Source of the DNA: an uncultured Alphaproteobacteria bacterium
GTDB lineage: Bacteria; Pseudomonadota; Alphaproteobacteria; Reyranellales; Reyranellaceae
Direction: 5' to 3'
Assembly: GCA_903929895.1 (NCBI GenBank)
Contig: CAIYWM010000498.1
Location: 1 to 16,154 of the forward strand
DNA length: 16,154 nucleotides
In this document: piece by piece, positions 9,438 through 13,986 of the stretch
How the letters are laid out: each line of letters begins with the position of its first letter
Numbering within the stretch: the stretch's first letter is position 1
Notes under the pieces: generated by a model
Databases searched by the model: none
Told to the model about the DNA's origin: nothing
What the model saw: only the letters and a program-made list of their open reading frames with translations
Position numbers and translations under genes: made by a program

Positions 9438-11273
9438 ATGACTGAGCCCACCCGAGAAACACCGACCGCCACGGTTTCTCCCGATGCAGCCGTCCCGCCC
9501 CTCATCGCCCCGCTCGAACATGGTACGGAATCGAACCTGCCGCCCGCCAAGACTTCGATCGACGAATTCCTGAAGCGCAACGAAGAGGTCCTCGCGAAGG
9601 ACCGCGAGGAGTTCCAGGCCTATCTCGTCGCCAAGCACGAGCAGGCGACTCGCAAGGCCCGCGAAGAGGCGGCCATGCCGAAGGTCAAGACGAAGGTGAG
9701 CCGGCGCACGATGCTGAACGTCGCCGTCGGCACCGCGGCCGCCGCCGAGGTCGCCGTGCTGGGCTACAGCGCGATGAACGGCGGCTCGTCTTCGGACAAC
9801 GGAATCATCCGCGCGGCCGGCAACGGCGCGCAGCAATCGCCGATCACCCGCGAAGTCGTCGACTCGCGCGCCGACATCCGGGGCCAGAGCCTCGGCAACT
9901 GGGTGGCGCTGCTGCCGACCAAGATGGGCGGCGGCACCTACGCGATCGATCTGAACTCGAATCGCGTGCTGGGCTCAATCTGGTACTGGAACTACGGCGA
10001 CTACAATCCGATCAGCCATCATCTCTGCGCCTTCCCGAGTTCCGATCCCACGCACGGCTTCGAATTCGTGAACTCGACGCAGGGCGGCCAGAACTCGCTG
10101 ATCTACGGCATCCCGACCAACGTGACGGCGGAGAACGTGCCGGGCGGCACCAACATCTATCGCGTGCGCTACGACGGCACGCAGATGCAGATGATCGAGA
10201 ACGTGTCCGAGACGACCGGGCTCGGCCTCGGCGTGCACGTCACCGTCAATCCGAAGGACGCCCAGTCCTACTTCGTGACCGACGGGCAGAAAGACATCGC
10301 CGCCTGTTTCGATCGCACCACCTCGAAGGTGAAGGCGGCGCTGCGCTTCGACTGGACGCCGAATGTCCCTCAGCTGCGCGAGGCCTGGATCAAGGGCGGC
10401 ACGCTCACCATCAAGAAGATCTATCCCGACGAGAAGACCGGCCTCTACAATCTCCGCGGCACCAAGGGCAACAAGATCGACTGGGAAATGGTGCCCATGG
10501 GCGAGCTGTTCGTCGAGGAAGGCTCGCTGCCCGGCGAGGCGCCGCTGACGCTGACCGGCGCCGACGGCACGGTCTGGCATCCCGAAGGCCGCTGGGCGGC
10601 GACGGTCGTGCGCCTGTGCGGCGGCATCTGCATCCTCGATCCCGAGAAGAACTTCGAGCCGGCCGCCTTCCTGCAGTTCAACAAGGATTCGCAGGACCAG
10701 TACAAGGTCGAGCAGATCGACAAGGACACCTGGCAGGTCGTGTTCGACAAGATCCACTCGCCGGGACACGAGATCGGCTTCTCGCCCGACGGCAAGTTCC
10801 TCGTGATGATGAACAACCTGCGGGAAAACAACTGCTCGATCTTCTCCTGCAGCGATCCGGATCCGACCAAGTGGCGCAAGATCGCGCATGTCGAGGATCC
10901 GCTGTGGCGCGGCAAGTATCCGAACCCGTTCCACATGGTGTTCTCGATGGACAGCTCGAAGCTCTATCTGTCCATCCTGCATCCGTCGCCTGCCTATAGC
11001 GGCATCATGGTGATCGATACCAAGACCTGGACCATCAAGAAGGAGATCCAGGGCATCGGGCCCGACCTGCAGACGCCGGCCATTACCTACGACGGCAAAT
11101 ACGTGCTGACGCCGTTCAGCGGCTTCCAGCGCCAGTCGACCGGCATCTCTGTCATCGATACGTCCACAGACACGCTGATCGGCATCCTGCCGAGCAACGG
11201 CGGACATCATGACTGCGTGATCATCCCGACCAAGCTGGAGCACATGAAGCACACGCGCTCCTGCACGCTTTGA
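9438..11273 (+). CDS. Tat-exported copper beta-propeller oxidoreductase, thiocyanate dehydrogenase-like (CuA-less NosZ relative)
   Basis: A 611-residue predicted periplasmic enzyme. Residues 1-87 form a long charged leader before the Tat motif SRRTML (88-93) and a hydrophobic stretch. The rest reads as a seven-bladed propeller related to the N-terminal domain of nitrous oxide reductase (GDYNPISHH, and HDCVIIP near the end, like NosZ EPHDC). The protein ends there: no cupredoxin domain and no CuA CxxxCxxxH motif, so it is not a nitrous oxide reductase. Candidate copper ligands are H194/H195, H267, D376, H444, H499 and H590/H591; K162, K343, E350 and F498 are also in place. Their spacing matches, within a few residues, what I recall for Thioalkalivibrio thiocyanate dehydrogenase (K103, H135, H206, K281, E288, D314, H381, F436, H437, H528). 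The position equivalent to H482 is Q545. The ATG follows GGGGAG; an in-frame ATG at 9396 lacks a site. First gene of a four-gene operon. The true substrate is unproven. Confidence 0.75.
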   Translation: MTEPTRETPTATVSPDAAVPPLIAPLEHGTESNLPPAKTSIDEFLKRNEEVLAKDREEFQAYLVAKHEQATRKAREEAAMPKVKTKVSRRTMLNVAVGTAAAAEVAVLGYSAMNGGSSSDNGIIRAAGNGAQQSPITREVVDSRADIRGQSLGNWVALLPTKMGGGTYAIDLNSNRVLGSIWYWNYGDYNPISHHLCAFPSSDPTHGFEFVNSTQGGQNSLIYGIPTNVTAENVPGGTNIYRVRYDGTQMQMIENVSETTGLGLGVHVTVNPKDAQSYFVTDGQKDIAACFDRTTSKVKAALRFDWTPNVPQLREAWIKGGTLTIKKIYPDEKTGLYNLRGTKGNKIDWEMVPMGELFVEEGSLPGEAPLTLTGADGTVWHPEGRWAATVVRLCGGICILDPEKNFEPAAFLQFNKDSQDQYKVEQIDKDTWQVVFDKIHSPGHEIGFSPDGKFLVMMNNLRENNCSIFSCSDPDPTKWRKIAHVEDPLWRGKYPNPFHMVFSMDSSKLYLSILHPSPAYSGIMVIDTKTWTIKKEIQGIGPDLQTPAITYDGKYVLTPFSGFQRQSTGISVIDTSTDTLIGILPSNGGHHDCVIIPTKLEHMKHTRSCTL

Positions 11274-12481
11274 GGCTGCTCGCCAGTCTGGCGCTGCAGA
11301 ATCTCGGGCGCCGCAAGGCGCGCAGCCTCCTGCTGATCATGGCCGTGGCGGTGGCCAGCGGGGTCGTCTTTACCGGCGCGACCTTGATGCGCAGCATCGA
11401 CAGCAGCATGGCGGTGGGCTTCACCCGGCTGGGCGCCGACATGATGGCGGTGCCCGAAGGCGCGCTCACCAACATCACCGCGGCGCTGCTCACCGTCGAG
11501 CCCACCGACCTCGTGCTCGACCAGGACCTGTTTGCCAAGGCCGGCCTCGCCAGCGTGAGCCGCGCCGCGCCGCAGAAGATCGCCCGGGTCGAGCACTCGG
11601 GAATCGGCAACCATCACGATTCGGTAGATCTCATCGGCTTCGATCCCGCGCTCGACTTCACGGTGCGACCCTGGCTGGTCGAGAAGATCAACCGCGACAT
11701 GAGGCCGGGCGACGTCATCCTGGGGGCGGCGCGGGCCGCGCCCCTGGGCTCCGAGCTGCTGATCTTCGGCAAGCCGCACACGGTCTATGGAAGGCTGGGA
11801 AAGACCGGTGTCGGCACGCATGAGCGCGGCGTCTTCATGACCTTCGACACGCTCGAAGCCCTGGCCGGTTCGGTGCACGGCCATGGCGGCGGTCCGCCCG
11901 CCGTCCTGCAGAAGGGCAAGGTGAGCGGCTTCCTCGTCGAACTGGCGCCGGGCGCCACGCCGCTGCAGGCGCGCTTCGCCATCCTCTCGACCCTCAAAGG
12001 CGTCAAGGTCGTGACCGGCGATTCGACCATGAGCGGCATCCGCCAGGGGCTGGCGGCGCTGCTGAACGGCATCCTCGCGCTGATGGTGCTGATGTTTGCC
12101 AGCACCGCCCTGATGGTCAGCGTTCTCTTCTCGGCGATCGTCACCGAACGGCGTGGCGAGCTCGGCCTGCTCAAGGCGATCGGCGCCCGGCGCGGCCAGA
12201 TCGTGGGCATGATGGTCATCGAGGCGGTGATCGCCACCGGCGCCGGCGGCGTGCTGGGCGTCGCGCTGGGCGTCCTGGTGATGCGTCTCTACGAGCGTTC
12301 GCTGGTCTACTACCTCGAGAATATCGGCGTGCCCTTCGTCTGGCTCGACGGGCCGCAAATCGTGATCGTCGCGGTCGCGGCGGTCGTGATGGCCTCGATC
12401 ATCGGCGCCCTGGGCTCGCTCTATCCGGCCTGGCGCGCCAGCCGCCGCGATCCCTACGATCTCGTGCGCGGGGAGGGCTAG
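11270..12481 (+). CDS. MacB/FtsX-type ABC transporter permease
   Basis: A 403-residue inner-membrane permease with type VII (MacB/LolCE-like) topology: one helix at about 18-38, an extracytoplasmic domain at about 40-260, then three helices near 263-290, 312-340 and 362-386. ERRGELGLLKAIGA (293-306) is the conserved coupling segment of FtsX permeases, and YPAWRASRRDP (385-395) the usual end. This class does not normally pump through the membrane but couples ATP hydrolysis to movements in the periplasm. The outer domain has many His: H109, H115, H116, H170, H184, and H203-G-H205 before GGG. The TTG start overlaps the stop of the enzyme gene (TTGA). No clear ribosome site is present, so translation is probably coupled. 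Its ATPase follows after three bases. Role relative to the copper enzyme: inference from linkage. Confidence 0.88.
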   Translation: MRLLASLALQNLGRRKARSLLLIMAVAVASGVVFTGATLMRSIDSSMAVGFTRLGADMMAVPEGALTNITAALLTVEPTDLVLDQDLFAKAGLASVSRAAPQKIARVEHSGIGNHHDSVDLIGFDPALDFTVRPWLVEKINRDMRPGDVILGAARAAPLGSELLIFGKPHTVYGRLGKTGVGTHERGVFMTFDTLEALAGSVHGHGGGPPAVLQKGKVSGFLVELAPGATPLQARFAILSTLKGVKVVTGDSTMSGIRQGLAALLNGILALMVLMFASTALMVSVLFSAIVTERRGELGLLKAIGARRGQIVGMMVIEAVIATGAGGVLGVALGVLVMRLYERSLVYYLENIGVPFVWLDGPQIVIVAVAAVVMASIIGALGSLYPAWRASRRDPYDLVRGEG

Positions 12482-12484
12482 GCG

Positions 12485-13153
12485 ATGCTCACCTGCCGCG
12501 GCCTGGGCAAGGATTACGTCACCGAACGCGGCGAGGTGGCGGCGGTGGCCGGCATCGACCTCGAGATCGCGGCCGGCCGTTACGCCGCGATCATCGGGCG
12601 GTCGGGGTCGGGCAAGTCGTCCCTGATGGCGATGATCGGCGGTCTCAGCCGGCCCTCGCAGGGGGAGGTGACGGTGGATGGCACCGACATCTGGAGCCTG
12701 TCCGAGAACGCGCTGGCGGCGTTCCGCAACAAGCGCATCGGCTACGTCTTCCAGTTCGCGAGCCTGCTGCCCACGCTGCGCCTGGTCGACAATGTCGCGT
12801 TGCCGGCGATGCTGGGCGGCGGCGCCAGATCATCCGCAACCTATGCCCGGGCGGCGGCGCTGCTCGGCCAGATGGGGCTGGGCGACCATCTCGACGCCTA
12901 TCCGTCGGAGGTTTCTGCCGGCGAGCAGCGGCGGGCGGTGATCGCCCGCGCCCTGATCAACGAGCCGGCGCTGATCCTGGCCGACGAGCCGACGTCGGAC
13001 CTCGACGAGCAGACCGAGATCGAGATCATGGACGAGCTGCTGGCGGTCAACCGCGAGCGCGGCACGACCCTCATCCTGGTCACGCACAATCTGGCGCTGG
13101 CGGAACAGGCCGAGCAGATCGTCCACATCGCGCACGGCGCGCTCGTCACGTGA
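12485..13153 (+). CDS. ABC transporter ATP-binding protein (LolD/MacB type)
   Basis: A 222-residue ATPase, the usual length of LolD-like subunits, partner of the upstream FtsX-type permease. Walker A is GRSGSGKS (38-45), the Q-loop Gln is Q90 in YVFQFASLLPTL, Walker B is LILADEP with D167-E168 followed by the D-loop SDLD (171-174), and the switch His is H201. The signature reads VSAGE (143-147) where LSGGQ or LSGGE is usual; the Ser and second Gly are kept, so activity is likely preserved. The ATG at 12485 follows GGGGAGGGC. The stop overlaps the GTG start of the next gene (GTGA), a tight junction that ties it to the membrane protein downstream. Confidence 0.93.
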   Translation: MLTCRGLGKDYVTERGEVAAVAGIDLEIAAGRYAAIIGRSGSGKSSLMAMIGGLSRPSQGEVTVDGTDIWSLSENALAAFRNKRIGYVFQFASLLPTLRLVDNVALPAMLGGGARSSATYARAAALLGQMGLGDHLDAYPSEVSAGEQRRAVIARALINEPALILADEPTSDLDEQTEIEIMDELLAVNRERGTTLILVTHNLALAEQAEQIVHIAHGALVT

Positions 13154-13986
13154 GCGTTCCGTCTTCCGAGCAGGACAAGGATGCGCTGATCGCCGATCTG
13201 CGTCGCCAGCTCGGCGCCGCCCAGTCCGAAGTGCGCGTGCTGCGGCGGCGACTGGGGGCTGCAACGGCGGTCGAGACTCCGCAGGCGCAGGGCGGCCTGC
13301 TGAACGAGCTGCGCAAGGCTGCGCCGCGCAAGTCCGACGCGCCGGCCAGTGTGGCGGTAAAACTTGGCCGCCGCTTCGATCTCTGGCGCTCGCCGGTGCT
13401 GGTCGGGCTGGTCATGCTGCTGCTGACGGGCTTCGCGATCGATGCCGGTGTCGGCCTCTACCAGGCGCGCGCGCTGCGTGAGGCGCGGCAGGCCCGGCTG
13501 CTGCTCGAGAACACCGCGACGCGCTCGCTTTATGTCGAGCTGAAGGGGATTTCCTACGAGCCCGACGGCAAGTCGTACCGCATGACGCTGTTCCTGCAGA
13601 ACGTCAGCCCGGCGGGACCGCTCTACGTCATGCTGAACGCCGTCGCCGTCTACGTGCAGGCCGGCATGGTCTGGCAGCAGGTGCCGTCACGGCCGGTCGA
13701 GGGCGTGAGCTGGGGCGTCGTGAAGGTCGTGGATGGCTACACGTTCGACGTCCTCTTCGCACCCGACGTCCAGAATTGGGCCGAGCTGATCCCGGGCTAC
13801 ATGCATGTCCGCATCCAGTCGGACCTGCTGGTCAGCGAGAAGGCCCAGCCGGGTAACGACGTCGTCGAGCGGCGCACGCCCTACTATGTCTACCTGAAGC
13901 CGCACGGCGCCAATGACGAGGACATCAAGGCGCGCAGCAAGTCGAACCGCACGCCGCCGATCTTCATTCCGATGCCGCCGCATTGA
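13150..13986 (+). CDS. Single-pass membrane protein with coiled coil and periplasmic domain, unknown function
   Basis: A 278-residue protein I cannot assign to a named family. Residues 8-36 (ALIADLRRQLGAAQSEVRVL) have heptad character of a short cytoplasmic coiled coil. A basic linker follows, then one membrane helix at about 82-104. The C-terminal 170 residues would be periplasmic: a beta-rich pattern (YVELKGISYEP, YRMTLFLQNVSP, YVMLNAVAVYVQ, YTFDVLFAPD, YMHVRIQSDLLV), perhaps immunoglobulin- or FixG-like, with a Pro-rich tail. The single cytoplasmic-in orientation fits a linker between the ABC ATPase side and periplasmic enzyme. The GTG start overlaps the ATPase stop, so translation is likely coupled. 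It is the last gene of the operon. It may be a periplasmic adaptor for the transporter or the copper enzyme; this is inference from gene order. Confidence 0.75.
   Translation: MSVPSSEQDKDALIADLRRQLGAAQSEVRVLRRRLGAATAVETPQAQGGLLNELRKAAPRKSDAPASVAVKLGRRFDLWRSPVLVGLVMLLLTGFAIDAGVGLYQARALREARQARLLLENTATRSLYVELKGISYEPDGKSYRMTLFLQNVSPAGPLYVMLNAVAVYVQAGMVWQQVPSRPVEGVSWGVVKVVDGYTFDVLFAPDVQNWAELIPGYMHVRIQSDLLVSEKAQPGNDVVERRTPYYVYLKPHGANDEDIKARSKSNRTPPIFIPMPPH

Follow-up and report, generated by a model that had tools for sequence, protein, structure and literature searches.

An FtsX-type ABC machine co-inherited with a glutamine clade of thiocyanate dehydrogenase-like enzymes: a candidate copper-site maturase

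Introduction

What does an ATP-binding cassette (ABC) machine do for the exported enzyme next to which it is encoded? The question is raised by four adjoining genes in a 16,154-nucleotide stretch of DNA (here called the window), contig CAIYWM010000498.1 (C498) of an uncultured alphaproteobacterium of the Reyranellaceae, whose genome assembly (GCA_903929895.1) is 84% complete with 6.85% contamination. These genes encode a relative of thiocyanate dehydrogenase (TcDH) that carries a twin-arginine translocation (Tat) signal, an FtsX-type permease, an ATPase, and a 278-residue protein of a family without a name, which we call the MPPH subunit after its C-terminal residues. We report here that enzyme and machine are inherited together in several phyla and that the enzyme differs from characterized TcDH at one active-site position. 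As our best guess, the machine would serve the maturation of the enzyme.

Dedicated machines for copper enzymes have a precedent in NosDFY and NosL, where an ABC ATPase, a permease, and a periplasmic protein serve a periplasmic copper propeller enzyme. The initial annotation regarded the pairing of a TcDH-like enzyme with an ABC transporter as a new type, but it is no first, since genes for two permease/ATPase pairs and for hypothetical proteins, induced by thiocyanate, were already reported downstream of the Thioalkalivibrio TcDH gene in 2017 (Berben and colleagues, 2017; PMC5328954, PMC5744179). Copper transport was offered there as a first hypothesis for the ABC genes, and their function was left open (PMC5744179). 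Apparently new are the glutamine (Gln) clade to which the window enzyme belongs, the MPPH subunit, its fusion with the ATPase, and the phylogenetic spread of the system. The open-licence literature, a scope outside which most subscription papers lie, yielded no paper on any of the first three and nothing useful on Reyranella and thiocyanate.

Linkage of enzyme and machine

The four genes lie exactly where the initial annotation had placed them; at two of their junctions the reading frames overlap by 4 bases, while a 3-base gap separates them at the remaining one (Table 1). The operon is genuine and its order is far from chance: with the window proteins as queries, the order enzyme, permease, ATPase, MPPH subunit recurred in 59 of 68 related loci, the lowest enzyme identity among them being 43%. 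The nearest loci belong to Reyranella and other metagenome-assembled genomes (MAGs) of Rhodospirillales. Further hosts are Chelatococcus, Ancylobacter, Methylocapsa, and other Alphaproteobacteria, and beyond that class Cyanobium, Synechococcus, Melainabacteria/Obscuribacterales, one planctomycete MAG, and a few other bacteria. The machine genes thus follow the enzyme across phyla, as the initial annotation had asked of them, with the exceptions discussed below. Five of the nine loci without the full order (L005, L018, L030, L046, and L056) stop at a contig edge.

Two loci deserve mention in their own right. A complete operon lies on a 304-kb plasmid of Methylocella tundrae (L113; NZ_LR536451.1), where it is annotated as hypothetical proteins and ABC genes, and one Reyranella MAG carries the operon twice (L019 and L020).

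The same linkage was seen in whole genomes. Among 75 Reyranellaceae genomes, the enzyme was detected in 42, the 278-residue gene in 41, and both in 39. There were 39 pairs of the two genes on one contig and strand, spaced 1,979 to 2,494 bases apart; one genome had two such pairs, and in G462 the two genes lay on separate contigs. Four of the five mismatched genomes reflect contig ends, which fall inside the permease or ATPase gene in G441, G459, and G466 and at the start of the contig, inside the permease gene, in G444. The fifth, G445 (L141, G445:C226:1-2000), has a damaged copy of a neighboring J-domain gene (described below) and a 278-residue gene. The matches to these two are separated by 267 bases in which enzyme, permease, and ATPase have left no trace; the locus is either a remnant or misassembled.

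In a broader set of 398 Pseudomonadota genomes, the source genome included, enzyme and 278-residue gene occurred in the same two. The 278-residue family was found in 4 of 274 Hyphomicrobiales genomes, namely, G406 (the genome on which the sample was centered), G1148 and G1382 (both with the enzyme nearby), and G1199; G187 and G1382 gave identical coordinates and are probably one genome drawn twice. The G1199 copy (L146) is a broken C-terminal piece with the MPPH end kept, and the 16 kb fetched around it contained no enzyme. The cyanobacterial phylum, sampled with 292 genomes, had the enzyme in two, one of them the center of the sample. We conclude that enzyme and machine form a genuine co-inherited unit.

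Two groups of genomes weigh against an obligate role for the machine. Four loci of a Methylococcaceae type (L058, L060, L062, and L063) encode an enzyme of the Gln clade without an adjoining permease, ATPase, or MPPH gene, and when 15 whole genomes were searched the 278-residue family was found in 11, the four misses being these same genomes, two of them MAGs. The machine is therefore not always required. In addition, five gammaproteobacterial genomes whose enzymes have histidine at the variable active-site position yielded neither a 278-residue gene nor, in the stretch fetched, such a permease or ATPase; this group comprises only five contexts, in one of which the contig (L130) ends shortly after the enzyme, and the control for the 278-residue search was the same alignment, which gave the 11 positives in the 15-genome search. 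Homologues without the machine, named by the initial annotation as what would speak against its proposal, thus exist in part of the family. Separately, the enzyme frame of L060 is interrupted by a stop codon.

Fold and active site of the enzyme

Residues 151 to 610 of the window enzyme matched solved TcDH structures (8yu5, 8q9x, 5f75, and others) with an E value of about 1e-148 and 47 to 49% identity, and its AlphaFold2 (AF2) model was superimposed by Foldseek on 8q9x with a template modeling score (TMt) of 0.94, a root mean square deviation of 1.6, and 49% identity. By both the PDB sequence match and Foldseek, the whole catalytic domain is homologous to the TcDH propeller. NosZ, proposed by the initial annotation as the structural relative, does share the propeller fold; however, NosZ and cytochrome cd1 chains are only 10 to 13% identical to the window enzyme, and Foldseek lists NosZ from rank 36 downward among many propellers, so it is a relative at the level of the fold only. 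Ahead of the catalytic domain, the SRRTML motif (S88 to R90 and the residues after it), read by eye in the translation, begins a stretch that we take to be a putative Tat signal.

The legend to Fig. 4 of PMC6504805 lists 13 active-site residues of Thioalkalivibrio paradoxus TcDH, described in that article as binding copper or water or forming the cavity. In an alignment with TcDH, their counterparts in the window enzyme are K162, H194, H195, Q215, H267, E350, D376, H444, H499, Q545, H591, D592, and R607. Twelve of the 13 are kept, and the exception is Gln545, in place of H482. The titles of PDB entries 6SJI (H482Q mutant of T. paradoxus) and 8YU5 and 8YU6 (H447Q mutant of P. methylotrophicum) indicate that the natural Gln545 is the same change that crystallographers have engineered; no paper on these mutant names was found in the open-licence literature. 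In TcDH, H482 is presumably a direct copper ligand. Enzymes with Gln probably contain copper as well.

Glutamine occupies this position in all 66 loci, among the 68, whose frame reaches it. Of the other two, L046 is cut before the site, and L060 has its stop codon before the site with Gln beyond it (tblastn). These loci were picked by likeness to the window enzyme, a choice that favors the Gln type, and rows of the His type came from separate searches; the homologous proteins considered were the best 120 of 498, of 655, and of 620 matches. All of the best 120 of 655 carry Gln, while a search with a His enzyme gave, among the best 120 of 620, 118 new proteins, 74 with His, 43 with Gln, and 1 ending short of the site (four further short, weak matches from another search that supplied His-type rows were left out). 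In a maximum-likelihood tree of 44 representatives, chosen at 80% identity from 306 of 310 rows, the 16 Gln and 28 His rows fell on opposite sides of one branch with support of 100/99. Both TcDH of solved structure stand on the His side. His is likewise the residue in the enzymes of the five gammaproteobacterial genomes, which were found at a later stage.

Judged by sequence and phylogeny, Gln marks a separate clade. With so clean a split, thiocyanate is unproven as the substrate of the Gln clade, and an enzyme with Gln at the H482 position throughout its clade cannot simply be named thiocyanate dehydrogenase. The resemblance to TcDH claimed by the initial annotation therefore stands for the fold and most of the active site, and the search against solved structures agrees with it, but the tree sets the window enzyme apart from the TcDH of those structures. 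Thiocyanate or another small sulfur compound may be the substrate, both as candidates only. Cyanate lyase (PF02560) would be expected if cyanate were the product. A search of 16 genomes, 14 of which bear the enzyme, detected it in 3; it was not found in the source genome at its 84% completeness.

Four early-branching Gln enzymes (P0296, P0298, P0301, and P0323) have Asp in place of His at window position 381, and one of them, P0323 from Tautonia, bears the UniRef name methanethiol oxidase.

Permease, ATPase, and MPPH subunit

The permease contains a Pfam FtsX domain (E = 3.5e-17) and, by hydropathy count, one N-terminal and three C-terminal helices; its similarity to the NCBIfam models of ADOP, LolC/E, and MacB is weak. 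The ATPase matches Pfam ABC_tran (E = 5e-31), and its nearest NCBIfam model is LolD, at 221.7 bits against a cut-off of 307.75. The permease reached 38.7 bits with the Lol model (cut-off, 362.45), and the MacB model gave 179.4 bits for the ATPase and 26.9 for the permease (cut-off, 966). The machine is thus like LolCDE and MacB in its best scores but differs from them in that all scores lie under the curated cut-offs and that it has the MPPH protein as an extra subunit; moreover, unlike in single-chain MacB, ATPase and permease are encoded by separate genes. With a LolD-like ATPase and weak permease matches, "MacB-type," the term of the initial annotation, is a loose label.

No His or Cys is conserved in more than 80% of 23 aligned permeases, and the sole candidate past that threshold is Met47 (19 of 23). 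The best candidates for metal ligands in the machine therefore sit in the 278-residue protein. This protein gave no Pfam or NCBIfam match above the cut-off. Hydropathy counts one helix, and the AF2 model (mean predicted local distance difference test score [pLDDT], 85.6) has a helix at residues 82 to 126 and strands at 127 to 274, suggesting that a membrane helix is followed by an Ig-like domain in the periplasm and by a tail rich in proline. The tail ends in the invariant MPPH sequence, and His219 is invariant as well (Table 1). In 18 of the 59 loci, ATPase and 278-residue domain form a single reading frame. We infer that the MPPH end may bind copper and that the subunit may touch the enzyme.

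These features bear on two explanations other than maturation. The 278-residue protein could be part of the working enzyme, with His278 entering the propeller channel and replacing the side chain that is missing at the H482 position; enzyme and machine would then make up one catalytic complex. The invariance of the tail fits this, as does the presence of Gln in every site-complete enzyme beside an MPPH gene, but the Methylococcaceae-type enzymes share Gln and have no MPPH protein, and we regard such a complex as improbable. Alternatively, the machine could move a small molecule of the reaction, exporting or clearing a sulfur or cyanate-like product or handling the substrate. Sulfur made in the periplasm must go somewhere; against this, permeases of this class usually work mechanically and not as channels, and the invariant residues sit in the periplasmic MPPH protein, a pattern that, as an argument only, suits contact with a protein or a metal. 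The induction of both permease/ATPase pairs of Thioalkalivibrio TcDH operons on thiocyanate (PMC5744179) speaks for transport, which we nevertheless consider unlikely.

J-domain neighbor and N-terminal extension

When 26 loci were compared, a single gene outside the core four turned up in more than 4 of them, a membrane J-domain-like gene divergent to the operon, whose product has a weak Pam16 match in Pfam (E = 0.021). A copy with an E value below 1e-30 was found in 41 of the 42 enzyme-bearing Reyranellaceae genomes (the exception being G462) versus none of the 33 others; 29 of these 33 have weaker matches only, mostly to a remoter paralog over residues 125 to 219, and G445 retains pieces of the linked copy. 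In Alphaproteobacteria, the J gene is a fifth member of the unit. The HPD site is covered by 43 copies: 27 read HPD; 15, which belong to the window's subclade and include the window copy, read DPD; and 1 reads neither.

In alphaproteobacterial enzymes, the Tat signal is typically preceded by a helical extension. Of 69 loci, 43 show the motif of this extension, and the J neighbor is present in 42 of these; 22 loci have neither, and 5 are discordant, the motif being missed in J-bearing L003, L014, L025, and L045 (in the last of which the enzyme gene is broken) and present without a J gene in L009.

This extension, the membrane J-domain partner, and the closeness of the ATPase to LolD favor a third explanation, in which the Tat signal, with a tail left in the cytoplasm, keeps the enzyme anchored and a LolD/LolC-like machine detaches, places, or holds it in the membrane. 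However, the J gene is absent from 17 of the 18 loci in which ATPase and 278-residue protein are fused, the 22 loci just mentioned have neither J gene nor extension, and Thioalkalivibrio TcDH is described as a soluble periplasmic protein (PMC6504805). Such membrane handling is rather unlikely in our judgment.

Table 1. Features of the operon and its neighbor in the window
Feature	Position	Strand	Basis or remark
TcDH-like enzyme, 611 aa	9438-11273	+	Open reading frame coordinates; seven-bladed propeller, Gln clade
FtsX-type ABC permease, 403 aa	11270-12481	+	TTG start overlaps enzyme stop
ABC ATPase, LolD-like, 222 aa	12485-13153	+	3-base gap after permease
278-aa protein, family without name	13150-13986	+	GTG start overlaps ATPase stop
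Helical extension ahead of Tat signal, enzyme residues 37-78	9546..9671	+	AF2 helix; block pLDDT ~60-68 over residues 41-80
Putative Tat signal, S88-R89-R90-T-M-L and following stretch	9699..9776	+	Translation read by eye
His194-His195, corresponding to TcDH H135-H136	10017..10022	+	TcDH alignment and residue list of PMC6504805
Gln545, position of TcDH H482	11070..11072	+	Gln in 66/66 loci reaching the site
His219 of 278-aa protein, invariant	13804..13806	+	40 aligned sequences
Met-Pro-Pro-His C terminus of 278-aa protein (residues 275-278), invariant	13972..13983	+	59/59 loci end in MPPH
Membrane J-domain-like gene, 232 aa	8606-9304	-	Divergent to operon

Discussion

A maturation role is the explanation that we consider likeliest. 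It builds on direct observations of fold, residue conservation, gene linkage, and ATPase fusion, and we count in its favor the 12 of 13 active-site residues, the gene order in 59 of 68 loci, the co-occurrence in Reyranellaceae and Pseudomonadota, the fusion in 18 of 59 loci, and the MPPH end in 59 of 59. We propose, tentatively and with somewhat less than even confidence, that the unit combines a Tat-exported, TcDH-like copper oxidoreductase of the Gln clade with a dedicated ABC machine that assembles or activates its metal site. The more specific proposition, that this is an undescribed ATP-driven copper-site maturase of FtsX permease, ATPase, and MPPH subunit, serving a widespread clade that acts on a substrate other than thiocyanate and forming a counterpart of NosDFY/NosL made of unrelated parts, is more doubtful.

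FtsX-type permeases generally transmit ATP-driven motion to periplasmic partners. The machine, of the FtsX/LolC/MacB sort, would spend cytoplasmic ATP to move periplasmic domains, and the 278-residue protein would be its subunit and built-in periplasmic partner. Like TcDH, the client, exported in folded form by Tat, presumably requires more than one copper. The tail of the subunit (Met275, His278, the carboxylate, and perhaps His219) would most likely carry or place copper or else open the propeller channel, so that the metal site would be assembled or activated in an enzyme already folded and exported, in functional parallel to NosL and NosDFY. In Alphaproteobacteria, the membrane J-domain protein and the helical extension ahead of the Tat signal may cooperate at an earlier stage, before or during export.

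As in NosDFY/NosL, an ATPase, a permease, and a periplasmic protein would, judged by linkage and anatomy, be dedicated to one copper propeller enzyme; the permease class differs, and the client there is NosZ, with which the TcDH-like client shares only the propeller fold. The Thioalkalivibrio operon likewise has a Tat-exported TcDH followed directly by permeases of one plus three helices, ATPases, and a hypothetical protein whose single helix is N-terminal, but its permease and ATPase genes form two pairs, it also encodes a second Tat protein and a two-component system, and its enzyme has His482 (PMC5328954, PMC5744179). Thiohalobacter and Guyparkeria have a locus for a TcDH homolog with the same active-site residues, although its neighbors are described as Cus-type copper genes and a thioredoxin-like gene (PMC6504805). 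Bacterial methanethiol oxidase (SBP56/MtoX), which we liken by description and not by enzyme kinship, is also a periplasmic copper enzyme for a small sulfur compound with a neighbor (SCO1/SenC) thought to aid maturation, but that account names SCO1/SenC and MauG as the helpers instead of an ABC unit (PMC5739008).

How copper is acquired and inserted into TcDH has been said to remain to be determined (PMC5744179). Named strains, Ancylobacter aquaticus and Methylocella tundrae among them, carry the compact and conserved genes of the Gln clade, which are open to deletion tests of copper insertion. Several of the best 120 of 655 matches, all of which carry Gln, bear the JGI name "thiocyanate desulfurase," so that counts of thiocyanate degraders made by that name may be wrong. 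The clade carries a natural version of an engineered change, and it puts the true substrate of a widespread enzyme in question: the machine is a candidate helper of that enzyme, and the change in the active site casts doubt on the name by which the enzyme usually goes.

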